Shown here: piece after piece, positions 3-25,556 of the stretch
Layout: every line of letters starts with the position of its first letter
How positions within the stretch are numbered: position 1 is the stretch's first letter
Virus record (IMG/VR): IMGVR_UViG_3300042326_001692
Location: 1 to 25,556 of that record
DNA length: 25,556 nt
Direction: 5' to 3' (one strand)
From: a virus
Position numbers and translations under genes: made by a program
The notes under the pieces: generated by a model
What the model was told of the DNA's origin: nothing
The model's database searches: none
Seen by the model: only the letters and a program-made list of their open reading frames with translations

Positions 3-1121
3 ATATCCTTAACTCCAAGCCCAAGCCCTGCTACTACAACATGCCCACCATGCTATAAGTGCAGCCAAAATGCTGGAGCAGGAGAAACAATAGTAGATAC
101 ATTTAGGGGTCCAAATGCATGTGTATCATGTTCTAGCGTTTTAGAATCCTATAATGTAAATTGTTCAACGACTACAACGACAACTCATAATCCATGTGCT
201 TCACCTCCGTGTTGCCCTGATGAAACTGGAACTAGATGTGGAACTAATTGCTGTTGCTGCGGTGGTGGATTAGCACCAACAGGTCCAAATTGTGAATGTC
301 TGCCATGTGGCAGTTCTAGAGAAGAGTGTGAGGGAACAAGTACTACCTCTACCTCTACGAGTACTAGTACAAGTACCTCTACAAGCACAACAAATACAAC
401 ATCTAATCCAATTTATTGTAGTCTTTACTCTTGTAGATGGCGAGCCGTTGGAAATCAAAGCATGGGTTATGAATGGGTTATATTTAATAATAGTTGTCCA
501 CCGCCATGTACATGTTCAGATATGCCAAATTATATGGGTAATCCAGAAGCTCTATATGCAGATATCCCATGTTCTGGAATCAATGCAACTACAACACCTT
601 CGCCAAATTGCATGTCATTACAATGTACATATTGGTCTGGAATGTTGGGTGTTGAATGGACATTATTTAATTCTGGTTGTATGCCACCATGTGTATGTGG
701 TCCAGCACCATCTGGCTTTCCAGTTGAACAATATCAATACTCATTAGCTCCATGTGTAGAAGGAACTAGTACATCGACATCGACCTCTACCTCTACGAGT
801 ACCAGTACATCAACAAGCACTTCGACTTCGACAAGTACCAGTACATCGACTAGTACGACAGAAACACCGACCACTACGAGTACCAGTACATCGACTAGTA
901 CGACAGAAACACCGACCAGTACGACAGAAACACCGACCAGTACGACAAATCCTAGCATGGGAACATGTACTCAATATACCTGTGATGGAGATGGCTTTTT
1001 GATATTTATTAATAGTGTTTCATCTACTGAGGCCAATTGTGGTAGCAGTTATTGTTATGGTAATTGTTATGCAGACGAATCATGTAGAGGGCAAACAGCC
1101 TATCTATATTCACCCCCTTAA
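3..1121 (+). CDS. Cys-rich, Thr/Ser-linker modular protein (partial, 5' end missing)
   Basis: The reading frame is open from the window edge, giving 372 residues of the C-terminal part of a longer protein. It alternates cysteine-rich modules with linkers made almost only of Thr and Ser. About 36 residues are Cys. An N-terminal part contains a run of four Cys (near 242-262). Two clearly homologous modules follow (about 414-576 and 609-755) with the shared pattern Cys-x3-4-Cys, a Trp about 16-19 residues later, an Asn-rich turn, then Cys-x2-Pro-Cys-x-Cys and a closing Pro-Cys. A third, more diverged module (966-1085) lies close to the C-terminus. Disulfide or metal-stabilised small domains on O-glycosylatable mucin-like linkers are my inference. 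No transmembrane segment is visible in the part present. It lies just upstream of a putative virion protein, so a tail, fibre or capsid-surface role is plausible. The family is not recognised and the true start is outside the window. Confidence 0.8.
   Translation: MSLTPSPSPATTTCPPCYKCSQNAGAGETIVDTFRGPNACVSCSSVLESYNVNCSTTTTTTHNPCASPPCCPDETGTRCGTNCCCCGGGLAPTGPNCECLPCGSSREECEGTSTTSTSTSTSTSTSTSTTNTTSNPIYCSLYSCRWRAVGNQSMGYEWVIFNNSCPPPCTCSDMPNYMGNPEALYADIPCSGINATTTPSPNCMSLQCTYWSGMLGVEWTLFNSGCMPPCVCGPAPSGFPVEQYQYSLAPCVEGTSTSTSTSTSTSTSTSTSTSTSTSTSTSTSTTETPTTTSTSTSTSTTETPTSTTETPTSTTNPSMGTCTQYTCDGDGFLIFINSVSSTEANCGSSYCYGNCYADESCRGQTAYLYSPP
333..404 (+). repeat. Thr/Ser dipeptide linker repeat 1
   Basis: Low-complexity coding stretch with alternating Thr and Ser codons (acc tct, acg agt, act agt, aca agt). 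Synonymous codons vary from unit to unit, so the peptide repeat is conserved better than the DNA, which points to selection on the protein. It separates the first Cys-rich part from module A. Confidence 0.8.
762..947 (+). repeat. Thr/Ser linker repeat 2 with TETPT units
   Basis: Second mucin-like linker: alternating Thr/Ser, then three units that encode Thr-Thr-Glu-Thr-Pro-Thr. Here the DNA itself is repeated: the 39-base segment 834-872 recurs exactly at 879-917 (45-base offset), and the last unit recurs once more at 918-938 with a 21-base offset. All offsets are multiples of three, so gain or loss of units keeps the frame. This indicates recent in-frame tandem duplication, in contrast to the older-looking first part of the linker. 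Confidence 0.85.
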
Positions 1122-2962: not shown

Positions 2963-3727
2963 TTACTCCAGTTCAAAAAAACATTCCTTCGTACCATTCT
3001 TAACTAAGTCTATTGTATGCAAAAGTTTTTTCAAGATCGTTCTCATATAAAATCCAGAACTATTTCCATCTATGTTTTTTACACGAATCATTTTCATTCC
3101 AGCATTTATTATAAATCCAGTTTTTTTATTATCACTAGCCACTTGTTTTTTATGTATATCCTCACCCCAAATAGACCTAAAATGACTTGGCCCATCTATT
3201 TCTATTGCCAAATTAAGGTCAGAAATAAATATATCTATATGTTGTTTTCTGTCAATAGCCCAAAATTCTTTGTGAAAATCTGCTTTAAAACCTTCTTTTT
3301 TCAGTCCAGTAATCAAGAACTTTTCTAGTTTAGATCCATATACTGCTGCTGCCCTAACTGATATTGCTGCTGCCTTTTGCATTTCTTCTACTTTTTGCAC
3401 AGACTTAGCTTCCCATTGCTGTCTAGACATTTCAGCCCTTCTTTTTTTTTCATCCTCTCCCATTTCTTGCCATACATTAGCAATAGAGTCACTTATCTTA
3501 TTCTTTGTAGCTTCTGATGTTTTCTTGCCTTTTGTGGGGTGTTTACACCTACCAGTTTCTATAGCTTTTTCTTGTGCTTGAGATTTATCCCTAAGTGGTA
3601 TGCCAAATTCTACTAAAGCCCTTCTAACTTTATTGGGATATGTACCAAATTCTTCTGCTATTTGATATGTAGATTTAACTTGTTGTACATAATGCTCAAT
3701 TAAGTATTCATGCGTTAACTGGTTCAT
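2963..3727 (-). CDS. Free-standing homing-type endonuclease, NUMOD3 plus Vsr/EDxHD-like nuclease
   Basis: 254 residues. Residues 20-46 form a helix-turn-helix of the kind seen in intron endonucleases (YQIAEEFGTYPNKVRRALVE). Residues 62-82 match a NUMOD3 DNA-binding repeat (HPTKGKKTSEATKNKISDS). After a charged helical linker, residues 130-220 form a PD-(D/E)XK-type nuclease: E135, HIDIFIS with D165, then AIEIDGPSHF with E176, D178, H182, and D199. This arrangement resembles the Vsr-related I-Bth0305I/EDxHD homing nucleases. It would cut a DNA target and drive its own spread. The ATG at 3727 is preferred over the GTG at 3736, since an AGGAG (3736-3740) sits eight bases before it. It overlaps the gene upstream by 20 bases, so it is translationally coupled and not a simple loose insertion. 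Confidence 0.8.
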   Translation of the reverse strand: MNQLTHEYLIEHYVQQVKSTYQIAEEFGTYPNKVRRALVEFGIPLRDKSQAQEKAIETGRCKHPTKGKKTSEATKNKISDSIANVWQEMGEDEKKRRAEMSRQQWEAKSVQKVEEMQKAAAISVRAAAVYGSKLEKFLITGLKKEGFKADFHKEFWAIDRKQHIDIFISDLNLAIEIDGPSHFRSIWGEDIHKKQVASDNKKTGFIINAGMKMIRVKNIDGNSSGFYMRTILKKLLHTIDLVKNGTKECFFELE

Positions 3728-4166
3728 TTTTATCACTCCTAAATATTTCGCTTAATTTAAAGTCTTCAACCACCAAACATTTTTTATTCCACGCCTCTTC
3801 AATAGCTAATGCATGTCTATTACTTCTAGCAACCAATTTAATTTTACTGTTTCCATATATTTGCTGAATGTCTTCATAATCAAAAGATTGCAATCTCATC
3901 CATTCTAAATCCCAAACATAAAAATAAAAGCTTTTTACAGATGGATTTTTTAATATAAGTTTGCATGAATCTATATCTGTAGCAACAATGTTCTTGCCTT
4001 TATAATTCCAAAAATCATACATCATAAAGATAGAGAATCCATTGTTTGCATTAATAGTGTAGTCATTTTGAGAAAATACAACTAAATCATTATCATGTGA
4101 CTGTTTAGTCAAAAGATATGAAAGCTGACTAAACCTTATTTTATTTACAACAATTGCTATTTCCAC
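3708..4166 (-). CDS. Hypothetical protein of the sugar cassette, possible small GT-B-like protein (152 aa)
   Basis: I do not recognise this family with confidence. The N-terminus from the GTG start (MEIAIVVNKIRFSQ) looks like the first strand and loop of a Rossmann-type domain. Later segments are strand-helix units, such as NIVATDIDSCKLIL and KIKLVARSNRHALAIEEAWNKKCLVVEDF; the last resembles the end of a GT-B donor domain, where a helix follows a strand and a name-place loop. The GTG at 4166 is chosen because GAGGAA (4174-4179) stands seven bases before it, while the ATG five codons upstream lacks a good RBS. It is flanked by the GHMP-kinase-like gene and the homing nuclease. A minimal glycosyltransferase or a sugar-cassette accessory protein is the best guess. 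Confidence 0.55.
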   Translation of the reverse strand: MEIAIVVNKIRFSQLSYLLTKQSHDNDLVVFSQNDYTINANNGFSIFMMYDFWNYKGKNIVATDIDSCKLILKNPSVKSFYFYVWDLEWMRLQSFDYEDIQQIYGNSKIKLVARSNRHALAIEEAWNKKCLVVEDFKLSEIFRSDKNEPVNA

Positions 4167-13445: not shown

Positions 13446-13453
13446 TTTAATTC

Positions 13454-13840
13454 CTATAGTATTTGATTACCGAAATCTTCTTCTTCTGCAAATACTTCTG
13501 AATGTTGTTCTTCTTCATCGTTTGCTTTCTGATCTACATACCAAAATTTTTGAACTATAAATTTAATTTTATGCCTGTTTTTTCCATTTTCTTTATCTAC
13601 CCAACTTTCTGTTTTAGCAGAAGTATGCACTAAAATTCTAGAACCTTTTTTAAAATACTTCCCAATCAAATCAGCAGTTTTTTCCCAAGCAACACAATCA
13701 ATAAAAGTCATTTCTGGTTTTTCTTGATTCTTAGATGGATTTCTAACCGAAATACAAAAGTTAACAACAGATTTTCCATTGTTTAATTTTATAAGTTCTG
13801 GTTCTCTAGTTAGCTTACCAAGGAAAGAACAAATATTCAT
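13454..13840 (-). CDS. ssb: Single-stranded DNA-binding protein (128 aa)
   Basis: Bacterial-type OB fold: MNICSFLGKLTREPELIKLNNGKSVVNFCISV (1-32) is the standard SSB opening, with FIDCVAWEKTADLIGKYFKKGSRILVHTSAKTESW (46-80) and HKIKFIVQKFWYVD (90-103). The C-terminal 20 residues are acidic and end in EEEDFGNQIL instead of the usual DDDIPF. The acidic-Phe core is kept, but four extra residues follow, which may change docking of partner proteins. It would coat ssDNA at the phage fork. It sits nine bases downstream of the polymerase C-terminal gene, so it belongs to the replication unit. Confidence 0.93.
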   Translation of the reverse strand: MNICSFLGKLTREPELIKLNNGKSVVNFCISVRNPSKNQEKPEMTFIDCVAWEKTADLIGKYFKKGSRILVHTSAKTESWVDKENGKNRHKIKFIVQKFWYVDQKANDEEEQHSEVFAEEEDFGNQIL

Positions 13841-13849
13841 TTCTATCTC

Positions 13850-15475
13850 CTAAATTTGAACAACAGTTTTAACTAAAAGAGAGTCACTTTTTTTGTCTCG
13901 TTCACCTTGAATCAAGACTGTATTACCCTCTTTTAACAAAGAAGCAAAATCTTTGTACGAGTTTGGAAAACAAATGACATCATCTATTTTTCCAGTAGCA
14001 TCAGATATTGATAAAAATGCCATTCTAGATCCTGGTGTTTTTCCAGCCTTTGTAAGCACTTCTTTAGACCTTCTTATTTCAACACCAAAGACCATATAGC
14101 CACTCTTTCCATCTAAGTATTCTTTGCATGTAGTGTTAGAACTACTTGTGTCGCAAGAGTCTGTAGCATTATATGTTAAAGAAATTCCTAAAGAATCCTT
14201 TTCAATCCAACAAACCCAACTTGGAATATCTATTAAAGGAGAAGGGGGATTTTTAATCATAGAAGCAATGCTTTTTAAAACCTCAACTCTTTTGACTGAA
14301 GAACAACAGCCACCTTCTTTTTTTGTCTTTGCTGAGTTTAAAATCATATCTGGTATATTAGTGATTTCAACATTAGCTTTTATCCACTCCTTTTCTTTGT
14401 CTGTTAATTCAGACCAAGCATTAAATTCAGCAAGAAGAACCTTCCTTTTGCTGCCAAATTTTCTTAGAGCGTTAACAGCAATTAGTTTTTCAATACTTGA
14501 TTTTGGCATTTCATCAGAACATTTAACAACAAATTCTTCCCAAGAATCTATACTTTTGCCGTAATTATTTATAGCTAGTTTGATTTTTTCAAATTGAGAT
14601 TGCCCAATTCCTTTTACATCAGTAATACCAAACCAAATTGATATTCCGTCAGTGTAAAAGTTGCTATTTAGCATCATTATGTCTGGAGAATAGACAGCTA
14701 TATTGAATTTTTTTGCATCTTCAATTAGTTCAGATATTTCAAGCTGACTATCTGCTTTGTCTTTTGCAAAATAAAGCCAGCTAGTAAAGAATTGAACTGG
14801 AAAATGGCTCTTTAAATAAGCAGTATCATATCCAATTAAGCCATAGCAGCAACTGTGACTGCGATTAAACGAGTATTTTTGACTCTGTTCAATCCATCCA
14901 AATATTTCTTCAGCTTGATCTTCTGAGACTACTTCTATCTTTTTAGCACCCTCAATAAACATCGTCTTACATTTTGCCATTTCGCTAGATGATTTCTTTC
15001 CCATTGCCTTACGAAGCATGTCTGCTTCTTGCAAAGTAAATCCAGCGATAACTCTAGAAAGTTCCATTGCCTGTTCTTGAAAAACAAGTGACCCATAAGT
15101 TGATTTAAGTGCATCATCAACAATAGGATGATAGGATGAAACCTCTTCTTCTCCGTTTACAATACGGCAATAATGTGCGGTCATACTAACGCCCTTATCA
15201 TCAACAGAACGCAAAGCTCCCGGTCTGATAAGAGCACCTAAAGCAGTTAAATGATCAACAGTTTTTGGTCTTAATTTTTTAGACCATTGTTTTCCAAGAT
15301 CTGATTCTAACTGGAAAATTCCTTTTGTATCGCCTCTAGAAAATATATCCCAAGCAATATCGCAAGAAGGAAGATTAGTTGGATCTACTTCCATTAGAGG
15401 CAAAGAATCTTTGGTTAAAGGATCTCCAATTATTGGAAAACTACAACCACATGAAAATTTGTATGTTTTTGTCAT
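13850..15475 (-). CDS. dnaE: DNA polymerase III alpha subunit, C-terminal half (fingers, HhH, OB; 541 aa)
   Basis: Starts with a short Cys-containing leader (KFSCGCSFPIIGD, 6-18), then takes up the DnaE sequence just after the third catalytic Asp: AWDIFSRGDTKGIFQLES (41-58), LTALGALIRPGALR (76-89), VFQEQAMELSRVIAGFTLQEADMLRKAMGKK (131-161), YSFNRSHSCCYGLIGYDTAYLKSHFP (201-226), the helix-hairpin-helix part near GITDVKGIGQSQFEKI (283-298), and an OB domain at 455-541 (YMVFGVEIRRSKEVLTKAGK, MAFLSISDATGKIDDVICFP). It lacks PHP and the palm Asp residues, so it can work only with the gene product at 16382-18298. Its site equivalent to the cyanobacterial DnaE split-intein site (before FNRSHS) is uninterrupted. 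Confidence 0.93.
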   Translation of the reverse strand: MTKTYKFSCGCSFPIIGDPLTKDSLPLMEVDPTNLPSCDIAWDIFSRGDTKGIFQLESDLGKQWSKKLRPKTVDHLTALGALIRPGALRSVDDKGVSMTAHYCRIVNGEEEVSSYHPIVDDALKSTYGSLVFQEQAMELSRVIAGFTLQEADMLRKAMGKKSSSEMAKCKTMFIEGAKKIEVVSEDQAEEIFGWIEQSQKYSFNRSHSCCYGLIGYDTAYLKSHFPVQFFTSWLYFAKDKADSQLEISELIEDAKKFNIAVYSPDIMMLNSNFYTDGISIWFGITDVKGIGQSQFEKIKLAINNYGKSIDSWEEFVVKCSDEMPKSSIEKLIAVNALRKFGSKRKVLLAEFNAWSELTDKEKEWIKANVEITNIPDMILNSAKTKKEGGCCSSVKRVEVLKSIASMIKNPPSPLIDIPSWVCWIEKDSLGISLTYNATDSCDTSSSNTTCKEYLDGKSGYMVFGVEIRRSKEVLTKAGKTPGSRMAFLSISDATGKIDDVICFPNSYKDFASLLKEGNTVLIQGERDKKSDSLLVKTVVQI

Positions 15476-15479
15476 ATTA

Positions 15480-16118
15480 TTATTTCTTAAATGAGTCTTT
15501 AAATTTAACTTTTGGGTATATTGATCTATGTAGTTTTAAGAAGTATGTGATTAAGTCTGCTGTTTGCTCAACATCAACTAGTGCATCATGAGCATTAGCC
15601 TTTGACATTCCAAAATGATCTCTAATAGTATCCATTTTCATATTAGGCATATCATCTGAATTTTCAAACCAAAGCAACATCATTTCATCTAAATCAAACA
15701 TGCTTCTTTTATTGAAGAAAGATTGTGTGGCATTTGGTTGAACATATCCTAATTCAATACAGACTCTTTGAAAAATCGGCATATCAAAAAATCTAATGTT
15801 TTTTCCTGCTGGAACAGGAGCTAATATATTGCTTTTACCAACCGCAAAAGTAGATATAAAATCAATAAACCTACTCCAAACAACATCAAGATTGGGTGCA
15901 AGCTGAAGTTCTTCTCTTGTCTTTTTGTTTACTGCTAGTGCTGCTTCTTGCAAATTTCCAAAGTCTCTAGGTTTTACAAGACTATTAAAGACTGCACCTT
16001 CTATTGGTTGAAGAGTTTTTCTATTTATTGCCTTTGCAGCAATTTGAATAACTTCACAAGTATTTGTATCTAAAGATCCTGTTTCAAAATCAAAAACAAT
16101 AATCGTATTACTCTTCAT
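15480..16118 (-). CDS. DnaQ-like DEDDh 3'-5' exonuclease (212 aa)
   Basis: Exo I: IIVFDFETGSLD with D10 and E12. Exo II: NIRFFDMPIFQRV with D112. Exo III: NAHDALVDVEQTADL with H177 and D182. This is the DEDDh family of the Pol III epsilon subunit and RNase T. The length fits a stand-alone catalytic domain, with a basic C-terminal tail and no obvious clamp-binding motif that I can be sure of. Its place between the two halves of the DNA polymerase strongly suggests it is the phage proofreader. The ATG overlaps the end of the 93-residue gene upstream, with GGAGAAG close to the right distance. Confidence 0.92.
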   Translation of the reverse strand: MKSNTIIVFDFETGSLDTNTCEVIQIAAKAINRKTLQPIEGAVFNSLVKPRDFGNLQEAALAVNKKTREELQLAPNLDVVWSRFIDFISTFAVGKSNILAPVPAGKNIRFFDMPIFQRVCIELGYVQPNATQSFFNKRSMFDLDEMMLLWFENSDDMPNMKMDTIRDHFGMSKANAHDALVDVEQTADLITYFLKLHRSIYPKVKFKDSFKK

Positions 16119-16389
16119 CGTCTTCTTCTCCTTTAATAGTTAGTTCTATTGATCCATCATCAATTTGCTGTATTTTAAGTTCGACTTCTGCATCTTCTGC
16201 TGAATCTAAAAAATCCTTATCTATAAGTAACATACCTCCATTTTGAATTGTTATTGCCTTTAATAGTTTGTTCGCCTGTTTAACAAGATCTTTCTTTAAT
16301 GAAGAGCAATCAGACAAAGCATCTAACAAGGCTGTTTGCTGGACTACCAGTTTACTTATTATAGATATTTCAAGAGAATTATCATTCAT
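16108..16389 (-). CDS. Acidic hypothetical protein inside the polymerase locus (93 aa)
   Basis: ATG at 16389 with AGGGGA six bases before it, overlapping the last codons of the polymerase N-terminal gene by eight bases. Residues 1-50 are amphipathic helices (LEISIISKLVVQQTALLDAL, LKKDLVKQANKLLKAI), residues 70-87 are beta-like (VELKIQQIDDGSIELTIKG), and the tail is EEDDEE. The family is unknown to me. Position between the two polymerase halves and before the exonuclease suggests a replisome role, such as holding the split subunits together, but this is inference from context only. Confidence 0.75.
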   Translation of the reverse strand: MNDNSLEISIISKLVVQQTALLDALSDCSSLKKDLVKQANKLLKAITIQNGGMLLIDKDFLDSAEDAEVELKIQQIDDGSIELTIKGEEDDEE

Positions 16390-18298
16390 TTGGTTTCCCC
16401 TTTAAAATATTTATACAACCCATTATTTTATCTAAAACTGCAACTCCAAGTATATCAAACTTAACCATTCCAATTGACTCTAAATCTGACATTTCCATAC
16501 CAGCTATCATCTGTTTTGTCTTTTTATCAAATGTCATTGGACATACTTCTGATAAAGGAATATTGCTAATAACTATACCAGCAGCATGTTTGCCCTGACT
16601 TCTTTTTGTTCCTTCTAATCTTATTGCCTGTGCAAATTCCTTTGCTAATCTTCCAGAGTAAGTGCCATCTTTTTCAATCTTACAATACTCAGATAATCTA
16701 TCAGGAATATTCTCTAACGCCCACCTTATTATTGAAGAATCTCCATCTTCATCTTTCATGTCTTGTAGTTGTTCAGATATCTCGGATTCATCTGGAATGT
16801 ACTTAGTTACATTGTTGCTTTCTTCAAAAGAAAAACCATGAACTCTAAGCACATCTTTTAATGATCCACGACCCTGCATACGACTAAATGTTATCATTTG
16901 GCAAACATTGCTGCTTCCATACTTTTGTTTTATATATTCTATTACTTTATCACGCTTTGTAATTGGAAAGTCACAGTCAATATCTGGCAAACTTATACGA
17001 CCAGCAGAGTTTCTTCCTGCGTTATAGAATCTTTCAAATATAAGAGAATGTTTAATGGGGTCTACTTCTGTTATACCCAAGAGGTAAGATATCATGCAGC
17101 CAGCACCAGAACCTCTACCTCTACCCATAATCCAACCCTTAGACTTTGCCCAATTGCAATAGTCTTGCACAATTAAAAAGTATCCAGCCAAACCAGAAGT
17201 ATCTATAACTTCAAGTTCGTGCTTTATTCTCTCTGTGTATACCTTATATTCATCTGTTTTTGGCTTTATTGCAGAGAAACGCCTATTCCACCCATCTCTG
17301 CATAACTTTCTCAAATAAAGGATCTGAGAAAGACCATCTGGACAAGCAAAGTTTGGTATAGCTGGTTGGTTTATAAGCGAATAGTTTTCACATAAGCTAT
17401 CAATTAAACAACAGTTGTTTATTTCATCTTCTTCGTGAAAGCTAGATATTTCTTCAATTGTTGGAAGATAATATTTATTTGACTTAAAGAATACAGAAAG
17501 CCCAAATTCTTCGTTGTTTTCTAATTTGCTATTTACATTCTTAAGAGTTGTTTCCATTGAAGAACACAATAAGACCCTTTGATCAGGAGCATCCTCTGGC
17601 ATAACATAATGAACATCTGGAGTTGCTATTTTTTTAATACCAGTTTTTGCACAAAGTTCTCTCAGGCATTCAGCAATAACCTTTGATGCAACTAAGTTAG
17701 AGCTATCAAACAATTGTATTTCTACAAAAAAATTATCTACCCCAAATATCTCAATGTATTTTGCACAAATATTTCCAGCTTCATTTAGCCAGTTGGGTTT
17801 GAGCATTTCTTTTATTTCATCATAATCAGTTCTTTTATAAGCCTCTTTATGATCTTCAAATAAAGAATTAGCCAAATCTGTTCCTGGATGACCAGAAAAT
17901 GCAATTAAATCACTGCACAGTCCTTTAAAGTCATTTAAGTTTAATCTTGGTTTATAATAAAAATAATCTAAGGAATTGGCTAAAGAAGACAAATTAATTA
18001 AGTTTTTCCAGCCGTTTAGATTTTTAGCAATGACACACAGGTGAGTTAAGCTTGAGTTTTCTTTATTGTGTTCTGTTGCTATATTCTTACAAATATAAAA
18101 TTCACAACCAATGATTGGTTTTATACCTTGTGAAATACAAGCTTTAGAAAAAGAAATAGCACCAGATATAGTTCCATGATCAGTTATGGCACATGAAGTA
18201 TATCCAAGTTCTTTGCATCTTTTTGCTAAAAGATCTGGCTTACTTAATCCGTCTAATAGGCTATAATGGGTATGACAATGCAATGGTATCCAATTCAT
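16382..18298 (-). CDS. dnaE: DNA polymerase III alpha subunit, N-terminal half (PHP and palm; 638 aa)
   Basis: PHP domain: PLHCHTHYSLLDGL (5-18), ITDHGT (38-43), GCEFY (64-68), TPDVHYV (226-232). Palm: MGRGRGSGAGCMISYLLGI (391-409), ISLPDIDCDF (435-444) with catalytic D441 and D443, HAAGIVIS (571-578), and VKFDILGVAVLDKI (612-625) with the third catalytic Asp D615. The protein then stops 23 residues later, about where DnaE would run on toward the fingers. Thus all three catalytic Asp are here, while the fingers and OB domain are in the separate gene at 13850-15475. The ATG at 18298 is chosen since AAGGA (18305-18309) stands six bases before it; an in-frame TTG two codons earlier is less likely. 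Confidence 0.94.
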   Translation of the reverse strand: MNWIPLHCHTHYSLLDGLSKPDLLAKRCKELGYTSCAITDHGTISGAISFSKACISQGIKPIIGCEFYICKNIATEHNKENSSLTHLCVIAKNLNGWKNLINLSSLANSLDYFYYKPRLNLNDFKGLCSDLIAFSGHPGTDLANSLFEDHKEAYKRTDYDEIKEMLKPNWLNEAGNICAKYIEIFGVDNFFVEIQLFDSSNLVASKVIAECLRELCAKTGIKKIATPDVHYVMPEDAPDQRVLLCSSMETTLKNVNSKLENNEEFGLSVFFKSNKYYLPTIEEISSFHEEDEINNCCLIDSLCENYSLINQPAIPNFACPDGLSQILYLRKLCRDGWNRRFSAIKPKTDEYKVYTERIKHELEVIDTSGLAGYFLIVQDYCNWAKSKGWIMGRGRGSGAGCMISYLLGITEVDPIKHSLIFERFYNAGRNSAGRISLPDIDCDFPITKRDKVIEYIKQKYGSSNVCQMITFSRMQGRGSLKDVLRVHGFSFEESNNVTKYIPDESEISEQLQDMKDEDGDSSIIRWALENIPDRLSEYCKIEKDGTYSGRLAKEFAQAIRLEGTKRSQGKHAAGIVISNIPLSEVCPMTFDKKTKQMIAGMEMSDLESIGMVKFDILGVAVLDKIMGCINILKGKPNE

Positions 18299-18304
18299 AT
18301 TCAA

Positions 18305-18309
18305 TCCTT
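18305..18309 (-). promoter_or_regulatory. RBS of the polymerase N-terminal gene
   Basis: AAGGA on the minus strand, six bases before the ATG at 18298. It lies in the 28-base space after the NUDIX gene, the longest gap in the whole minus-strand run. Confidence 0.65.
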
Positions 18310-18326
18310 AAATTTTTTTCAATTAA

Positions 18327-19094
18327 TTAATTTCTTAAGTAGTTCCTAATTACATGTACTGACCAATCTTCCCAGTTTATATCTGATATTACCGTTGTTT
18401 TTGTATGTTTGAATTCGCCATTTGCAAGAGCTTTATCAATTGGATTAAGCGAAGTTCCGTCTTTTAAGTGAACATGAAAAACAACGCCAAAATGAACAGC
18501 GTTAACTGTAGACGAATCGTCATTTATAACACCAACCAATCTTACAGAATGAGGATCTGAAAATTGAACTTCTTCTTCTATCTCTCTTTTGCAAGCATTA
18601 CCTATTGTTTCAATGTTATTTCCATCGCAAGGATTAACATGACCACCAACACCAACAGACCATAGATCATGAAGCCTATTTTCAGAACCATGTTTTGATC
18701 TTTGATAGACAAATAGCTGATCGTTTTTTGTAAAAATACAATAAGGAATTACTTGTTTATAGTTTAAGTCATTTTCTGCAATATCTCTGTCTATATAGAA
18801 TAAGTTTTCTGGAACAAGAATTTTATTTTTAATTTTAGAAGATTTTTCTCCAGTTAACATTCCTTGAAACGATAATTCTTCAGTTAACAATTCTTTTTTA
18901 AAGACTAAAACTTTCTCGCCATTGTACTTTGAAATATACTCTGGTTCTTTTGAAACAATTAGTTTTCCTTCTTCATCATAATTTGGATAGTCTTGATCTG
19001 TAGGAGATTCTTCTGGACTAAATGTTGTAGAAGTTGATGTTTGCATTGATTTTTCAAAAATAGCTTCTATCCACTTTTTACTTTTTGACATCAT
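18327..19094 (-). CDS. NUDIX hydrolase (255 aa)
   Basis: The Nudix box is in SVGVGGHVNPCDGNN...IETIGNACKREIEEEV, with R170-E171 and E174-E175 as the metal-binding set. The whole protein follows a bacterial NUDIX subfamily: KVLVFKKELL and LSFQGML (60-80), FYIDRDIAENDLNYKQVIPYCIFTKNDQLFVYQRSKHGSENRLHDLWS (99-146). The first 45 residues are an extra Ser/Thr/Glu-rich, probably disordered segment. It would hydrolyse a nucleoside diphosphate linked to another group, perhaps cleaning nucleotide pools or a nucleotide sugar. Start: GGGAG precedes two adjacent ATG codons (19094 and 19091), both overlapping the end of the nuclease gene. Confidence 0.87.
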   Translation of the reverse strand: MMSKSKKWIEAIFEKSMQTSTSTTFSPEESPTDQDYPNYDEEGKLIVSKEPEYISKYNGEKVLVFKKELLTEELSFQGMLTGEKSSKIKNKILVPENLFYIDRDIAENDLNYKQVIPYCIFTKNDQLFVYQRSKHGSENRLHDLWSVGVGGHVNPCDGNNIETIGNACKREIEEEVQFSDPHSVRLVGVINDDSSTVNAVHFGVVFHVHLKDGTSLNPIDKALANGEFKHTKTTVISDINWEDWSVHVIRNYLRN

Positions 19095-20109
19095 TATTCT
19101 CCCTGTTAGATTGACCGCCACCATCGCCATAAGAAACAACTGTTTTTTTATTGGCATATTTAGTATACGCAACATTCATGCCCAATTGTATAAGTTCTTT
19201 ATTCATAAAGTCACATATTGATTTTTCTGTGTCTTCATATTTTTCTTTATAAAATCTACAAAGCTTCTCACATTTCCACTTATCCTTACCATAATCTATA
19301 ATTCTTGATGGAAAATGGCAAGACTTTATTTTTTCAAATTCATACCTAATCATTTCAATTGTTGTTTTTATATCTTCTTTATGAAAACACAATGTAAAAG
19401 GACCACCGGCTTTATTAAAAAAAATAGTAATAATTATATTTTCTTCGTCTGGATAAAGCTTGTTTAATGCATAATGATAAAGTCTTAATTGAAAGTCTTT
19501 ATAAAAATCATCGTAGTTTTTTTCTTTTCCAGTTGCCCAGTTTTTTCTTTCTCCTGTTTTCCAGTCTATGTACTCTATTGTTTTTTTGTCTACTCTAGTT
19601 ATTAAGTCCATTGTTCCTTTGATTCTAAGATTTCCAGACATAACAGTACCATCATCTAAGTAGTATTCGTATTTAGCCCAAGGTTCTTCAATCTCTATAT
19701 CAAAATACTGCTCTGGTTGCTCAATTTTTCTAGATAAAGGTGAAAACATACCATTGTTAAACAACAAGGTATCCCAAGTCCACTTAGAACATTCTTTTAG
19801 ATCTTTGTCATCCCATTCATGAATGCTTTTATTTTTATAATGATTAAAGGCAGACAGTATGGCACTTTCTGGAGAAATATCTATTGTGGAAAAAGTTTCT
19901 TTTAATTCACCATCTGTAAATGTAGATGTTTCATTTTGTAGGCAAAGCTTTTTATTTGCCAACAATTCTAATGCTTTATGAACAACATTGCCTTTTTCCG
20001 CTTTTTTATTGGAATCATCTTGAAAGCCTAAGTTGTAAGTTAGCCAGTACTTATGTTGACACCATGCGTAAGAACTTACAGAACTAGACCTTAGATAAGT
20101 TATGATCAT
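19078..20109 (-). CDS. RecB/Cas4-like PD-(D/E)XK nuclease, probable Fe-S type (343 aa)
   Basis: Nuclease core: GNVVHKALELLA (40-51, H44), RIKGTMDLI with D168 (162-170), IEYIDWKTGE with D182 and K184 (178-187), and QLRLYHYALNKLY (207-219, the motif with the conserved Gln and Tyr). Four cysteines stand where an iron-sulfur cluster is found in AddB- and Cas4-type nucleases: C17 in SYAWCQHKYWL, and C280, C284, C299 near the C-terminus; spacing is wider than usual. It is likely a DNA exonuclease for end resection in recombination, or for host DNA breakdown. The last 30 residues are a Gly/Asn-rich tail. It overlaps the dNMP kinase gene by 26 bases. Confidence 0.85.
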   Translation of the reverse strand: MIITYLRSSSVSSYAWCQHKYWLTYNLGFQDDSNKKAEKGNVVHKALELLANKKLCLQNETSTFTDGELKETFSTIDISPESAILSAFNHYKNKSIHEWDDKDLKECSKWTWDTLLFNNGMFSPLSRKIEQPEQYFDIEIEEPWAKYEYYLDDGTVMSGNLRIKGTMDLITRVDKKTIEYIDWKTGERKNWATGKEKNYDDFYKDFQLRLYHYALNKLYPDEENIIITIFFNKAGGPFTLCFHKEDIKTTIEMIRYEFEKIKSCHFPSRIIDYGKDKWKCEKLCRFYKEKYEDTEKSICDFMNKELIQLGMNVAYTKYANKKTVVSYGDGGGQSNRENNDVKK

Positions 20110-20737
20110 TTTTAATCCAATTTATTTGTTTTAGTTTTCTAATCAATTCAAATTGTTGTTGTTCTTTAGACATATTTTCGTTATTTAAAATAATGTCAAA
20201 TTTACTTGTACATTTATCTATTTCATTTTCACTTATATGACTATCATTATCTGTGCTTCTTGTTAACCTAATAACTATTCCACCAGCATCTTTAATGCTA
20301 TCAATTTCATTTTCAAATCTTGCATCAGTAATAAAATTTAATGGACAATTTTGTTTGCTTATTGCATTAAAACAAGCGTTGATGTGTATTGATTTATTCA
20401 TTTTTCTGGCTATTCCAGTTCCAAATTCTTGTAAGAATTCTCTAGCTGTCATTTGTCCTATAGGTGGATTTAAATTATTATATTTTATTTCACTATAATG
20501 AGGTAAGTCTTCCCATAAATAACTTGTGAGTGAGTTTTTATCTTCTAAAGATCCAAAAACCTGTTTGTGTTTTAATCCAAAAAAGTTGATTGCTACTGAC
20601 TTCATTGTTTGAGCAAAAGAGAACATGCATGAATCACAACCAAAAAGCCTTAAAGAATTAAGAGAAAGAAATCCAGCTAAAGTATCTTTGCCAGAACCTT
20701 TTCTTCCAGAAAAACCTATCAATCTTTGAATTGTCAT
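20084..20737 (-). CDS. Deoxynucleoside monophosphate kinase (217 aa)
   Basis: P-loop GFSGRKGSGKDTLAGFL (8-24), QMTAREFLQEFGTGIARKM (about 95-113) as the substrate-binding helix, and LNFITDARFENEIDSIKDAGGIVIRLTR (about 133-160) with the Arg-rich LID-like part. These match phage dNMP kinases like T4 gp1. It would phosphorylate dNMPs made from host DNA breakdown into dNDPs, feeding the polymerase encoded 2-7 kb downstream. AAAGGA stands before an ATG that overlaps the primase stop (TAATG). Confidence 0.9.
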   Translation of the reverse strand: MTIQRLIGFSGRKGSGKDTLAGFLSLNSLRLFGCDSCMFSFAQTMKSVAINFFGLKHKQVFGSLEDKNSLTSYLWEDLPHYSEIKYNNLNPPIGQMTAREFLQEFGTGIARKMNKSIHINACFNAISKQNCPLNFITDARFENEIDSIKDAGGIVIRLTRSTDNDSHISENEIDKCTSKFDIILNNENMSKEQQQFELIRKLKQINWIKNDHNLSKV

Positions 20738-21864
20738 TAATACGAGTTCCTTTCAATCAAAGGCTTAATCATGCTGTTTATTTGCTCATTGCTAAGATCA
20801 CCTGGATCTTTAATGCCATCTGGCAGAGATGGGCATACTATTTTAAACATTCTAGAAAGAGATGAATTTAATTTATTCGAGGCACTATTGCCAGCTTTAT
20901 CTGAGTCAAAAAGCAATATTAATGTAGTAGCACCAGAAGATTCAAGCAAAACCTGTTGTGTATCTGTAAGAGAAGAGCCAAAAACAGCAACAACATTGTG
21001 TATTCCGTTTTCAACAAATTTCCATACATCTGCTGGACCTTCAACTAATATAACTATTCCAGTTTTTTTAATCTCATCTTTAGCATTACCAAAATTATAA
21101 AGATAATTCTTTTTTGAAAATCCTTTATTGTGAATCCATTTACTAATAATAGTTTGTGGATCACAGATTTCATTTTCATGATAGTTACTGCATTTACTGC
21201 ATTTATCAAGTATTGTTCTTCCAGTAAAACCTACAATTGTTTTATTGTCTGAATCATATACTGGAACTACTGCTCTTTTCCTAAAGAATCTATTGTCTGA
21301 TTTTGATTCCCCAATGTCATACATATCTAATATGTGTGCAGAATAGCCTCTAGACACAAAGTATTTTGATGGTATATCAAGTCTTTCTCTTACAACTTTT
21401 TTAGTGTATAAAAATTCTTTTTGTTTTTTAACAGTTGTAAATAAGTGTGCATGTTTATCAAAAGCATGAGAAGGAACATCGTCTTTTATACTGGAAAGAT
21501 CTATCTTTAATAAACCACAAAGAGAAGCAATTGTGTCTGAAAAACTAACTGTTCTATCTCCAACCTTTGACCAACCATACTTTTTATTACTCATTACTCC
21601 ACGGAAAAATCCTATAGATGTATTTATAAATGTGTTTTCGCAATGATGTGTATAACAAACCCAATTGCCAACTCTTGTATGTCCAGACATAAAAAGATTT
21701 ACTGCTGTTCTATTATCCCCACCATGAACTGGACAAGCACACACTATTGAGTCCGAAACGGATTTATATTGAATATTAAAATAGTCCATAAGAAATTCTA
21801 TTTTATCGCATATTACAGCATTTAAATATTCATTCTTAGTTATTTCAGTTGACTTCGATTTCAT
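20737..21864 (-). CDS. DnaG-type DNA primase (375 aa)
   Basis: Zinc-binding part: ACPVHGG (C44, H47) and NWVCYTHHCE (C70, C75), a CHC2-type finger. The catalytic core has RAVVPVYDSDNKTIVGFTGR (197-216), YLYNFGNA (254-261), and a TOPRIM domain VILVEGPADVW (271-281, E275) with LILLFDSDKAG (315-325, D319 and D321). No helicase-binding C-terminal domain is present, so the protein is shorter than bacterial DnaG. An additional cysteine group CSKC...C (C222, C225, C234) lies between core strands and may bind a second zinc. It lays RNA primers for the phage fork. The start overlaps the helicase end by 20 bases, with AAGGA seven bases before the ATG. Confidence 0.9.
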   Translation of the reverse strand: MKSKSTEITKNEYLNAVICDKIEFLMDYFNIQYKSVSDSIVCACPVHGGDNRTAVNLFMSGHTRVGNWVCYTHHCENTFINTSIGFFRGVMSNKKYGWSKVGDRTVSFSDTIASLCGLLKIDLSSIKDDVPSHAFDKHAHLFTTVKKQKEFLYTKKVVRERLDIPSKYFVSRGYSAHILDMYDIGESKSDNRFFRKRAVVPVYDSDNKTIVGFTGRTILDKCSKCSNYHENEICDPQTIISKWIHNKGFSKKNYLYNFGNAKDEIKKTGIVILVEGPADVWKFVENGIHNVVAVFGSSLTDTQQVLLESSGATTLILLFDSDKAGNSASNKLNSSLSRMFKIVCPSLPDGIKDPGDLSNEQINSMIKPLIERNSY

Positions 21865-23305
21865 CTGGCAATCCTTCCACTACAAAACCATTATTCTGTC
21901 TTGTAGACTGAGATTTAAAAATTTGACTTCTAGTTGGACCTTCTTCTATTTTTCCAAATTCATAATTAGCAAATATATTTATATAATCGCCTTGATCCAT
22001 TCCTTTGCCATGTCTTGCAACAACAGGAACTAATTTCAAATTGTATCTAATCTTATCCTGAGAGAATCCTTCATCTGCCATTTCCTCTTCACTTTTCCTT
22101 TTATAGATTGAAAAGTTGGAACATAGCCAAAGTATTCTGTCAGAACCAGATGCTACATCAGTATCTTCACGATTAATACCATCTCTGTTTAGCTGAGTAA
22201 ACGCTAAACATGAAGCATTATATTGAACCATAAAGTTATGTAGGTTTGTCATTAAAAAGCCAAGAGCTTGATATTCTGCCATATTTTTACCAATGCCAGA
22301 ATCATCCATTAGCTTTATATAGTCATATATGATTAAACATGGGTTTGCTTTTCCAGAATCATCAAGACCAACATCTTTAATTACCCATCTTCTAGCCATA
22401 CTTATAACTTCATCAAAGCTTTTTCCTGCAATAGACTTGTATTGAAATGGCATTTCTTTAATTTTTTCAATAGCCTTTTTAATACTATTTCTTTTTGAAA
22501 CATCTTTTGAGAATAAACCGCTTTCAATTTCTTCTATTTTAACTCCAGACATACAAGCCAATATTCTATGCCAATGATCTTTCTCCGTCATTTCTGTATC
22601 AAGCATTAAGACTGGAATCTTGTTTGACGATACGCTAATGCCAACATTGTCAGCAAAAAAGCTTTTACCAGTTTTCATTCTAGCACCGATAAGATTCACT
22701 GTTCCTGGCCTAAATCCACCCCCAATAGCCATATCATATGCTTTGAATCCAGAGGAAATACCCAACTGTGAAATTGGATTTGACTCTAAATACTCAACAT
22801 ATTCTTCTATGCCATCGCTCATTAGTTTTGGATTAGGATCTTCGGAGTTTGAAATCTTAAATGTTGCATCTAAAACACATGATTCTGCAATAGAAATAAT
22901 GTGGCTTATAGGCTCATCGCCAGTCACATTTTCAAGTGTGTTTGCACCATTGATTAGATTTAAAGACAGGTTTTTGGCAATGCTCAACTTTTTAAGCTTT
23001 GCTGCACTTTTTCTGGCATTAACTAATTCAACTGGAAAACTGGTTAGTGATCTTAAATACTTTGCCTGTTCTGATGTCTTAAAAAACTGTGATAAGTTTA
23101 AAGATTCAGCAGTAGAAATAACTGTTGGTATATCTACCCTTGAACTCTTATCAGTAATTATTTTTGAAAAACATTTGAATATAGCAGCATTGTCATCGCT
23201 AGAAAAACAGTTTTCATCAATAATATCTGCAACTTCAATAAAACAATCGTAGCCTTTCTGAAAAAGTCCAGCTAAGACCACTCTTTCTGCACCTACATCT
23301 ATCAT
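21845..23305 (-). CDS. dnaB: DnaB-type replicative helicase (486 aa)
   Basis: N-terminal helical domain (1-110), then the RecA-like motor: NLIGARMKTGKSFFADNV (204-221, Walker A), VLMLDTEMT (232-240, H1a with the DTE glutamate), LIIYDYIKLM (324-333, Walker B) and LAFTQLNRDG (367-376). A positively charged stretch with VVARHGKG (428-435) matches the Arg-finger end. It would unwind DNA 5' to 3' at the fork and load the primase encoded next to it. The ATG at 23305 overlaps the stop of the preceding gene (ATGATAGATG over TGA), with GGTGAGAAG upstream; an in-frame start eleven codons earlier is less likely. The P-loop has no intein, unlike that of RecA nearby. Confidence 0.93.
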   Translation of the reverse strand: MIDVGAERVVLAGLFQKGYDCFIEVADIIDENCFSSDDNAAIFKCFSKIITDKSSRVDIPTVISTAESLNLSQFFKTSEQAKYLRSLTSFPVELVNARKSAAKLKKLSIAKNLSLNLINGANTLENVTGDEPISHIISIAESCVLDATFKISNSEDPNPKLMSDGIEEYVEYLESNPISQLGISSGFKAYDMAIGGGFRPGTVNLIGARMKTGKSFFADNVGISVSSNKIPVLMLDTEMTEKDHWHRILACMSGVKIEEIESGLFSKDVSKRNSIKKAIEKIKEMPFQYKSIAGKSFDEVISMARRWVIKDVGLDDSGKANPCLIIYDYIKLMDDSGIGKNMAEYQALGFLMTNLHNFMVQYNASCLAFTQLNRDGINREDTDVASGSDRILWLCSNFSIYKRKSEEEMADEGFSQDKIRYNLKLVPVVARHGKGMDQGDYINIFANYEFGKIEEGPTRSQIFKSQSTRQNNGFVVEGLPDEIEVN

Positions 23306-23787
23306 CTTCTCACCGCTTTTTTCATGCAAGGAACACATATAAATCCAGAAGATTCATTATCTCTAGATTTAAACGCATATTCCTCTGAGGTTATTTCCAT
23401 AGTATTGGAACATTTTGTACAGTTAACGCTTTGAAATCCAGAAGATTCATCTACTGGCCTTCTGTATTTCTTAGGTTGTAAATCTTTAGATTGCTCTTCA
23501 ATAAAAGAACATTCTAAAGTTTGATCATCTACAAATTTGTTTTGAAATACTGGTCTAGCAACTGATTCTTTTGTCTTTGCTGCACTATTATTCGTATTGA
23601 TCATGAATTTATTCAATTGGGCATCATCGTTTTTAATTGTTTCAACAACAACTTCTTTTTTTTGTTCAACCACTTTTTCTTTTTTATTATTGAGCACCAC
23701 AACGCCAGCCAAATCCTGCAATACTTCATCTACTAATACCCAATCGCTTTTTTGTATTGCTTCTTTTAATTTAGATATTACGCTCAT
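23302..23787 (-). CDS. Hypothetical phage protein with C-terminal zinc ribbon (161 aa)
   Basis: The first 30 residues are a helix (MSVISKLKEAIQKSDWVLVDEVLQ), 31-110 are low-complexity and rich in Lys, Val, Asn, and 118-161 carry two CxxC pairs (C123/C126 and C151/C154) in a zinc-ribbon arrangement flanked by two SSGF repeats. RBS AAAGGA sits before the ATG. The gene lies between DnaB and another unknown gene in the replication run, so a helicase-loader, primase-partner or transcription role is possible; nothing in the sequence distinguishes these. Confidence 0.78.
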   Translation of the reverse strand: MSVISKLKEAIQKSDWVLVDEVLQDLAGVVVLNNKKEKVVEQKKEVVVETIKNDDAQLNKFMINTNNSAAKTKESVARPVFQNKFVDDQTLECSFIEEQSKDLQPKKYRRPVDESSGFQSVNCTKCSNTMEITSEEYAFKSRDNESSGFICVPCMKKAVRR

Positions 23788-24283
23788 TATTTTTCCTTTT
23801 GTTGTAAGAAAGATTAGAAAATGTATCAGAAACCTTTTCTACTCTTATAGGTAAATATTCTGTCCTGTCTATTCTTGCTTGTATCTTTACTGCAAGCATT
23901 TTTACTTTTTGTGCATAATCATCATCTTTAACTGATAATGCCATTCTTTCATCTGGAGAGAAGTATCTATAATCTGTAAGTTTAGACGAAATAGCTTTTA
24001 ATATCTTTTCGTTACACCATCTTAATTTTGCTTTTTCTCTGTTGAGCATTCTAGATAAATGAAAGGAGAAGCTATTTAATAGAACACAAGCTTCTGCACA
24101 ATCTTCAGAAGACATTTTTTTTAACTCTTCTTGCGAAAGATATAGGTACTTCATACAAGTAAATTCTAAATCTTTAGGGATTGAGGATAAACCTATTGAA
24201 TTTTCATAGCTATCTAAAAGAGAATCAAATTTTTCTTCTTCGCTAACCTTCAATTCTTTTTCGCCATTGTTGTTCTGATTCAT
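23771..24283 (-). CDS. Hypothetical helical phage protein (170 aa)
   Basis: Mostly helical: FDSLLDSYENSIGLSSIPKD (19-38), an acidic stretch, ACVLLNSFSFHLSRMLNREKAKLRWCNEKIL (65-95), and VKMLAVKIQARIDRTEYLPIRVEKV (127-151). The tail is basic and Asn-rich. I recall proteins of this type next to phage recA genes but know no function; a role as a recombination mediator or helicase loader is possible. Overlaps both neighbours (41 and 17 bases). The first ATG has only a weak RBS, so the true start may be a little downstream. Confidence 0.72.
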   Translation of the reverse strand: MNQNNNGEKELKVSEEEKFDSLLDSYENSIGLSSIPKDLEFTCMKYLYLSQEELKKMSSEDCAEACVLLNSFSFHLSRMLNREKAKLRWCNEKILKAISSKLTDYRYFSPDERMALSVKDDDYAQKVKMLAVKIQARIDRTEYLPIRVEKVSDTFSNLSYNKRKNNERNI

Positions 24284-24641
24284 TGAATGGTAACTCTATA
24301 AGGTAAATGTTGTTTTTTTCACACCACTCTATTTTATTTTTATCATTTTTTTTGGAATGATAAAAGTTCAACATTGTATTATGAAAAAAGGGTATGAATT
24401 TGTAGTGTTGTTCCCCATGAACTTCAACTATTGTTTTCCTCAATGGCAACCAAAAGTCTGCTGCTAAACCTCCAGAACCAGGCAAAGTTGCTTCTTCTAA
24501 GATTCTGTCCATTGGATACATTGCTTTAAGTATAGATCTAGCCAATAAATGCAATGAAGATCTAGGTTTAGAATCATCATGATCTGGAACATTGCCAGAA
24601 GTCCAAGAGTAAGTTTTACCATCAAGACCTATTACTTTCAC
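24243..24641 (-). CDS. Small Vsr-like / PD-(D/E)XK nuclease next to recA (132 aa)
   Basis: Residues 44-120 show the nuclease pattern: E49 or E50 (RILEEATLPGSGG), LAADFWLP (D62), KTIVEVHGEQHY (E73, H75, H79) and KNKIEWCEKNNIYLIELP (102-118), resembling very-short-patch-repair and EDxHD homing nucleases. The first 40 residues are an N-terminal extension that begins with MKVIGLDGKTYSW. A DNA nicking or cutting role in repair or recombination fits the context. The GTG start overlaps the recA stop (GTGA at 24641-24638), so it is translationally coupled to RecA. Confidence 0.75.
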   Translation of the reverse strand: MKVIGLDGKTYSWTSGNVPDHDDSKPRSSLHLLARSILKAMYPMDRILEEATLPGSGGLAADFWLPLRKTIVEVHGEQHYKFIPFFHNTMLNFYHSKKNDKNKIEWCEKNNIYLIELPFNESEQQWRKRIEG

Positions 24642-25555
24642 GATATAATAGCCTTAATTTCTTTTTCTAAAGCAGCAATCCACTTAGGATTTTCTAACAA
24701 TAATTTATACATTTTTTCTGCACCTTGAGTTTTAACTAACTTAATAGTAGCATCATCCCAAGCTTCAGCTTTCAGTAGCTTTAAATGTCTTTCCATAAAA
24801 TCTAATGTCATCCAAGCACCAGCTTTGTTTATAAGGCCAAGCTGACAACCTAAATTAATTGCTTCGTATGTATTATCTATTCCAATACCATATCTTATAT
24901 AACTATCTACTTCCATTCCTGGTGACCCTAAAGAACAAGATTCAATTAGCCAATGCACTTGCTGGCCAATTTGCTTGTCTTTTCCTTCACCACCAACAGT
25001 CCAAGGCTTATCAGACTTTACCCTCATTTGAACATCTGCCTGATATTGCAATGTTCTAGAACCCTTTTCTGTATAACCACCATACATACCTTGAGATTGC
25101 GTTAGATGCATAATCGCCCAAACCATACAGTTTTGTACTGGCACTATATTGGCTGCTTGTCTACAAAAACCAGCAAAAAGCTTATTACCAGCCCCTCTAT
25201 TCTCATAGCCAATACCTTGATCCATTTCCTTCTCATCACATAGAGCAGAAACGCTATCTATAATGATCAGGCTACCTGGATGGGTATTGATGGCTTTAAA
25301 GGCCAGATTTAGGTAGTCCTTTGCGGTAAGAATCTTATCTTGAGTAGATCTATAGATTGTCATTTTATTCAAATCTAAGCCAGCTATGCCCCTTAGATTC
25401 ATAGGCTTTAATCTACCCTCTATGTTTAGATAATACACATGTCTAGAACCATTCTCTGGTTTTTGACATTGAGCAGCAAAAGATAGTGAGGTAAGCGTGT
25501 TATGAGTTACAACAAAATTGTCTGTTAAATACAAACCGCTTTTATCTCTAACTGA
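24638..25555 (-). CDS. recA: RecA-family recombinase, C-terminal part, with intein at the P-loop (5' partial)
   Basis: The frame runs off the window edge. From the first extein residue (Thr at 25496-25498) 286 residues follow: TLTSLSFA is the helix directly after the Walker A Lys; NIEGR (E28) is the catalytic Glu strand; GSLIIIDSVSAL (75-86) is Walker B; ENRGAGNKLFAGFCRQ spans loop L1 and its helix; AIMHLTQSQGMYGGYTEKG (128-146) is loop L2. It would form filaments on ssDNA and exchange strands. The upstream residues are the last 19 of an intein, so the P-loop Gly-Lys must lie beyond the edge. The C-terminal 100 residues are helical. Its stop overlaps the start of the small nuclease gene. Confidence 0.92.
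   Translation of the reverse strand, partial: SVRDKSGLYLTDNFVVTHNTLTSLSFAAQCQKPENGSRHVYYLNIEGRLKPMNLRGIAGLDLNKMTIYRSTQDKILTAKDYLNLAFKAINTHPGSLIIIDSVSALCDEKEMDQGIGYENRGAGNKLFAGFCRQAANIVPVQNCMVWAIMHLTQSQGMYGGYTEKGSRTLQYQADVQMRVKSDKPWTVGGEGKDKQIGQQVHWLIESCSLGSPGMEVDSYIRYGIGIDNTYEAINLGCQLGLINKAGAWMTLDFMERHLKLLKAEAWDDATIKLVKTQGAEKMYKLLLENPKWIAALEKEIKAIIS
25499..25555 (-). mobile_element. C-terminal end of an intein inserted in the RecA P-loop
   Basis: These 19 codons encode a canonical intein C-terminus: strand block SVRDKSGLYLTDN followed by FVVTHN, with the penultimate His and the terminal Asn required for cyclisation, and Thr as the +1 nucleophile. After splicing the junction would be Lys-Thr of the RecA Walker A motif, a site known to hold inteins in other P-loop ATPases. 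The intein's size, and whether it carries a homing endonuclease, cannot be judged because the rest is outside the window. Confidence 0.88.
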
Positions 25556-25556
25556 G

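Follow-up and report, generated by a model that had tools for sequence, protein, structure and literature searches.

Inteins inserted in P-loops are already recognized as a class (PMC5050341), and splicing of one of them, the RadA intein of Pyrococcus horikoshii, responds to single-stranded DNA and temperature (PMC5790916). Class 3 inteins are defined by Trp B:12, Cys F:4 and Thr G:5 in combination with His B:10, His G:6 and Asn G:7, mostly with Ser or Thr at the +1 position (PMC5222942; PMC3196547), and the homing cycle predicts that decay follows fixation (PMC3229294). Here we describe a locus at which Walker A of a RecA/UvsX-like phage recombinase is very probably split by a class 3 intein that acts in cis and whose LAGLIDADG domain is inactive.

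The DNA analyzed (the window) spans an entire linear virus record, 25,556 bases long, at one end of which 19 codons encode SVRDKSGLYLTDNFVVTHN and run through a Thr into RecA, the C-extein beginning TLTSLSFAAQ (Table 1). The frame beyond the end of the record was read from three contigs that extend past it (L004, L006 and L007) and are 100% identical to the window over its final 2,057 nt. Window positions 13064-25556 match the L004 contig (141,809 bases) at 100% identity over the 12,493 nt that this comparison covers. A single open frame in L004 reads GGIPEGSWITCSGHPKSGK, then an intein of 322 residues that starts EQPVSAIVYT and ends VCISVRDKSGLYLTDNFVVTHN, and then TLTSLSF. Because the N-extein in the identical contigs ends SGHPKSGK, splicing would yield the Walker A sequence GHPKSGKT. 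A preliminary description, made from the window alone, had placed an intein within Walker A in a phage RecA and predicted an in-frame RecA N-extein ending GxxxxGK past position 25556; the identical contigs bear out both points, with the N-extein ending GHPKSGK and the intein lying between Lys and Thr. Its assignment of block F/G to the window holds for block G and the tail of block F but not for the block F Cys, which lies two residues past the window end.

Table 1. Positions of features in the window.
Feature	Position	Strand	Basis
Intein C-terminal 19 residues (...VTHN; block G preceded by the tail of block F, with Thr-His-Asn as G:5, G:6 and G:7)	25499..25555	-	Register fixed by the identical contigs L004, L006 and L007 and by the alignment
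+1 Thr of the C-extein, the Walker A Thr of GHPKSGK/T once spliced	25496..25498	-	Empty-site relatives read GK/T (L219: GK/S)
RecA C-extein, 286 aa and stop (stop of the frame at 24638)	24638..25498	-	Pfam RecA above cut-off; RecA chains in PDB by phmmer
Vsr/EDxHD-like small nuclease gene next to recA	24243..24641	-	PHROG 9084 'homing endonuclease', 5.2e-15
DNA polymerase III alpha (DnaE), as two ORFs	16382..18304 and 13850..15475	-	
Free-standing nuclease ORF	2963..3736	-	NUMOD3 just below the Pfam cut-off; PHROG HNH/homing endonuclease matches
Cys-rich protein with abundant Thr-Ser repeats, located at the opposite end of the record and cut by its edge	3..1121	+	

By sequence the host is a phage RecA. 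The RecA part of the window scores 36 bits against Pfam RecA (cut-off 27) and the L002 precursor scores 45.3 bits, and the Walker A motif GxxxxGK[T/S] is present across the joined exteins, as GHPKSGK/T in the window-like contigs; RecA ATPase and strand exchange are the predicted activities of the protein. In isolated phages the window RecA matched 163 records, all at less than 60% identity.

N-extein, intein and C-extein lie in one frame at 51 of the 69 loci, including two that are cut within the C-extein (L063 and L069). Four of the remaining loci have an empty site, in eight the contig starts within the intein, in five it starts within the C-extein, and in one (L058) a stop falls at the junction. 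In this last contig, which belongs to clade B, the stop is accompanied by a deletion that removes the GK/EQP junction (L058:5000-5060), the rest of the intein being open, and the arrangement is either a broken allele or an assembly fault. Among the matches listed, 51 of 80 further RecA loci were examined, of which 50 were empty and one (L180) showed an intein end; the other 29 were contigs already covered, and L171 repeats the contig of L062. As the number of these further loci, at least 80, is a lower bound, the balance between empty and occupied sites gives no estimate of frequency. A search of 18 records found the intein exactly once in 13 and not at all in five. Intein lengths are 309-310 and 322 residues in clade A, to which the window belongs, and 335-339 residues in clade B. 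A split intein at the RecA site is ruled out by the one continuous frame in the identical contigs. In bacterial genomes, none of 67 pattern matches was confirmed.

Residue 1 is Glu or Ala, never Cys, Ser or Thr, in all 51 complete inteins, which rules out a class 1 intein with a Cys or Ser start. Such a start had been expected in the preliminary description; the position is instead occupied by Glu, or by Ala in L015-L017. His64, Trp66, Cys302, Thr320, His321 and Asn322 (L004 numbering) are invariant in the 33 distinct inteins, and the same six residues are invariant in all 79 rows of a wider set from which copies were not removed. In that wider set the +1 residue is Thr in 73 rows and Ser in six, and residue 1 is Glu (68 rows), Asp (7), Ala (3) or Leu (1). 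The RecA inteins therefore combine a non-nucleophilic residue 1 with the Trp/Cys/Thr triplet, His B:10, His G:6, Asn G:7 and a +1 Ser or Thr, as in the definition of class 3. Moreover, His64 and Trp66 lie no more than one residue from the published H65 and W67, and the distance from Cys to Asn is 20, equal to that of the Bvi IcmO intein (PMC5222942).

With the full signature present in 33 of 33 distinct inteins, the block F Cys is the most likely starting point of splicing. In this pathway Cys302 would attack the Lys-Glu bond at the N-terminal junction, giving the branched intermediate at block F that characterizes class 3, and the acyl group would be handed to the +1 Thr; Asn322 would then cyclize with the help of His321, releasing the intein, and a final acyl shift would produce the native GHPKSGKT P-loop, so that ATP binding by RecA is expected only after splicing. 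A class 2-like route, with the +1 Thr itself acting on the N-terminal junction and the block F Cys playing no part, would account equally for the residue at position 1, since a non-nucleophile there is common to class 2 and class 3 (PMC5222942), but the entire Trp-Cys-Thr triplet is invariant and we regard this route as extremely unlikely. That RecA function would depend on splicing, as the preliminary description had argued, is a sound deduction because the intein splits the P-loop and strong constraint acts on the extein: extein dN/dS is 0.004-0.047 in seven close clade A pairs, which implies that RecA works and hence that the precursor is spliced in nature.

Class 3 inteins form a monophyletic clade. 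The assignment here draws on the signature residues; neither profile nor fold matches tell the classes apart. The intein profile matched gp41-1 best among known inteins (6riz, the C1A/F65W/D107C variant, 7.3e-15; 6qaz, unaltered, 3e-11), with class 3 DnaB behind it at 3e-6. The AF2 model of the intein (pLDDT 91.3, pTM 0.91) matches the class 3 intein 6bs8_C with Z 19.0 and rmsd 1.7 over 123 residues, but gp41-1 and Prp8 inteins tie with it (Z 18.9 and 18.8), and the best match is PI-SceI (1ef0_A; Z 26.6, rmsd 3.5 over 313). The curated Pfam family Hom_end_hint fell below its 32.1-bit cut-off in two of five precursors (12.5 and 15.6 bits) and was unlisted in the other three. The model of the precursor (pLDDT 66.1, pTM 0.49) was too poor for intein-extein contacts or function and was left unused.

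Both profile and structure place a LAGLIDADG fold within the intein. Pfam LAGLIDADG_3 is above its cut-off in the clade B precursors L040 and L059 and is unlisted for clade A precursors. The GDG and MDxDG motifs of the family align to positions 218 and 326 of PI-SceI, where Asp218 and Asp326 are presumably the catalytic acids. Distant RecA rows keep both acids as GDG and MDxDG, and clade B has LGNG, in which Asn replaces the first Asp throughout, and MDTDG. The first motif in clade A reads LLTVGF, LLTIGF, FLGAGI, LLGCGS or FIGAGV, with V, I, A or C at the acid position, and the second reads ILKVAG in the L021-L036 group, in which Asp is replaced by Ala, and ILSF-AHI in the L002-L018 group, in which the position is F or a gap depending on the alignment. 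Since both acid positions are non-acidic in clade A, the window intein should not cut DNA. The preliminary description had suggested searching the intein for a LAGLIDADG or HNH domain; a LAGLIDADG fold is present, although every clade A row lacks an acid at both catalytic positions. For the same reason its proposal that homing is aided by the host's own gene finds no support in the window lineage; it may apply to distant relatives with intact acids, in which some inteins have apparently moved horizontally.

If the intein were still a mobile homing element, its LAGLIDADG domain would cut empty recA alleles and the host recombinase would repair the break. The fold itself and the intact GDG and MDxDG motifs of distant RecA inteins are consistent with such a cycle, as is the position of one distant relative, L138, the extein of which groups with L130/L131 (100/90) and the intein of which groups with L125/L136 (100/100). 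Between L138 and L136, dN is 0.593 for the extein, 0.071 for the splicing part and 0.093 for the nuclease part, so that some of the intact-acid inteins of distant relatives look horizontally moved. Even this apparent transfer is not recent, since the intein dS for the pair is greater than 1, the extein dS being near saturation. In the seven close clade A pairs dN exceeds that of the extein for the nuclease part in seven and for the splicing part in five, the opposite of what recent transfer predicts, and conflict between intein and extein trees within clade A is not significant (p-AU 0.188). Together with the lost acids of clade A and the Asn of clade B, these data make continued mobility very improbable in the window lineage. 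There the intein is expected to have lost homing through its own nuclease, and signs of recent transfer are absent.

Despite the loss of both acids, the LAGLIDADG domain of the window clade is under purifying selection. Nuclease-part dN/dS is 0.033-0.115 in the same seven pairs (highest upper 95% bound 0.21), compared with 0.019-0.077 for the splicing part; the pairs were hand-picked, and distant pairs with saturated dS gave no ratio. This constraint exceeds the expectation for free decay (PMC3229294) and could be explained by folding within the splicing domain. We lean towards the view that the intein is a decaying passenger, fixed in the clade with a dead nuclease and kept because precise loss is rare, its constraint merely protecting folding and splicing. 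Such decay after fixation is what the homing cycle predicts (PMC3229294); nuclease-part dN/dS is higher than splicing-part dN/dS in all seven close pairs and reaches 0.165-0.306 (splicing part, 0.117-0.173) in more distant clade A pairs, in which dS is near or above 1, and clade B inteins exceed those of clade A by 13-30 residues, indicating some shrinkage in clade A. Nevertheless, the domain is nearly complete and in frame, an in-frame stop occurs in only one of the 60 loci that show the intein C-terminal end (L058, at the junction), and all 33 distinct inteins keep K185, the K-x-[IV]-P lysine. The invariance of this lysine while both metal-binding acids are gone is the basis for a second reading, rather unlikely in our estimate, in which the dead domain is kept for a new job: it would fold, perhaps bind DNA, and time the restoration of Walker A as a domesticated switch on phage recombination, with single-stranded DNA or recA DNA, for example, as candidate signals. 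The passenger reading is the more likely of the two; it is compatible with class 3 splicing and concerns only why the intein is kept.

Precise loss, rare as the passenger reading requires, is likely but not proven in clade C (L167-L170 and L175), the alternative being separate gains. These relatives are intein-free and 68-70% identical, with an uninterrupted GHPKTGKT, L167 being one example, and they nest among intein bearers with support of 100/99 and 98/96 in the large tree. In the smaller tree the second clade C branch has support of 93/94, and forcing clade C outside gives p-AU 0.058, which is not rejected at 0.05. The truncated loci L063 and L069 were omitted from the extein tree, L180, which is cut at its 5' end, was excluded, and identical sequences were kept once. 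In the intein tree clade B groups with L133 (98/98), and constrained trees that hold A and B together (p-AU 0.158) or A, B and L133 together (0.342) are not rejected; the inteins of clades A and B need not be one lineage.

A relative of the Vsr-like gene lies beside recA in 72 of the 74 loci searched, the two exceptions being contigs that end inside recA. Collaborative homing, in which this neighbor would cut empty sites and so spread the nuclease-dead intein, could be read from its matches to PHROG homing endonuclease families and from the overlap of its start with the recA stop in the window (24638-24641). However, the gene is found with and without the intein and is thus not tied to it; beside intein-free recA (L062, L064-L066, L167-L170 and L175) a nuclease specific for empty sites would cut its own genome. 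A role as mobility partner of the intein is therefore unsupported, and we hold collaborative homing to be highly doubtful. The neighbor is perhaps a domesticated homing nuclease.

The window also encodes DnaE in two separate frames, one half comprising the PHP and NTPase/palm part and the other the fingers and OB. The two are separated by an ORF for an RNase_T exonuclease and another of 93 aa; both halves occur as separate frames in 16 of 18 related records, and no intein sequence was seen at the ends of the two ORFs in the window. A 'fractured gene' layout is known from metagenomes, and the dnaE arrangement in a related 206-kb record (L238:3162-6157) resembles it: the dnaE C-half is broken at YSFNK/SHSS by an apparent split intein, of which IntN starts CLSPDSVVETKEG and IntC ends IAVSN/S, and an ORF between them (4137-5066) is nuclease-like and, by eye, Vsr/NUMOD3-like. 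In L239 (550-2949) a DnaE half carries a contiguous intein-like insert, RPG/C...HN/C, with an apparent HNH-type domain. Record G016 (206 kb), from which L175 derives, contains two recA-dnaE modules (45-56 kb and 191-204 kb), of which a single one has the dnaE split intein; this reflects either a chimeric assembly or a real duplication.

The same intein family is found between GK and T or S in distant phage RecAs and in other proteins, including helicases. Pfam names the host of the distant rows as RecA (L114, L130, L133 and L138), DnaB_C (L124 and L139) or SNF2 (L128 and L129); no Pfam match names the host of L120 or L137, both of which look terminase-like. The C-extein side of the GK/S intein in L137 (3265-5538) holds a second intein-like stretch, CYDDKTEVLTQDG, with LAGLIDADG_3 just under the cut-off, so that this protein perhaps carries two inteins. 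The L059 intein has matches in 775 isolated-phage records, and the best 40 of these are annotated as helicases, terminases, DarB-like proteins or a PhoH, or are nameless; among 50,697 isolated-phage records none covers at least 80% of the L004, L138 or L118 precursor. No class 3 intein in a phage RecA was described by title or abstract in the literature searched, in which a prior mention is possible, and passages of PMC10638138, PMC2663765 and PMC8987985 yielded nothing on a phage RecA intein.

The class 3 inteins in DnaB of mycobacteria and mycobacteriophages (Msm DnaB-1, 6bs8; MchDnaB-1, 6rix; MP-Be DnaB) have the signature, the His-Asn end and the fold of the splicing part in common with the inteins described here, the shared residues being a non-nucleophilic residue 1, Trp B:12, Cys F:4 and Thr G:5. 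The native flanks of Msm and Mle DnaB, FGVGK and STLGL, likewise define a GK/S site (PMC5222942), whereas the host here is RecA and the +1 residue of the window intein is Thr. The TerL1-a P-loop inteins of mycobacteriophages differ in having a terminase host (PMC5050341). The RadA intein of P. horikoshii and Thermococcus sibericus is likewise inserted in a RecA-family P-loop without a working nuclease, but it is an archaeal natural mini-intein that has no nuclease domain, and the precursor disulfides reported at its C1 imply a Cys start, in contrast to the Glu or Ala found here (PMC5790916).

The RecA intein of Mycobacterium tuberculosis (2in0 and others) shares the host family, although in a cellular RecA, and it matches the splicing part less well (Z 16.5 versus 19.0 for 6bs8_C). 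We take it to be a class 1 intein at a different insertion site. PI-SceI has the same two-domain layout, but retains Asp218 and Asp326, positions at which the window clade is non-acidic.

What distinguishes this locus is an unusually conserved dead endonuclease in the probable class 3 intein of a phage RecA. The locus extends to phages, with a class 3 intein, a kind of recombinase P-loop site at which conditional splicing is known from the archaeal RadA mini-intein (PMC5790916). Relatives without the intein, a clade whose nuclease is dead and more distant copies that retain the acids together supply natural alleles with which the question of whether some inteins are retained for regulation is directly testable.
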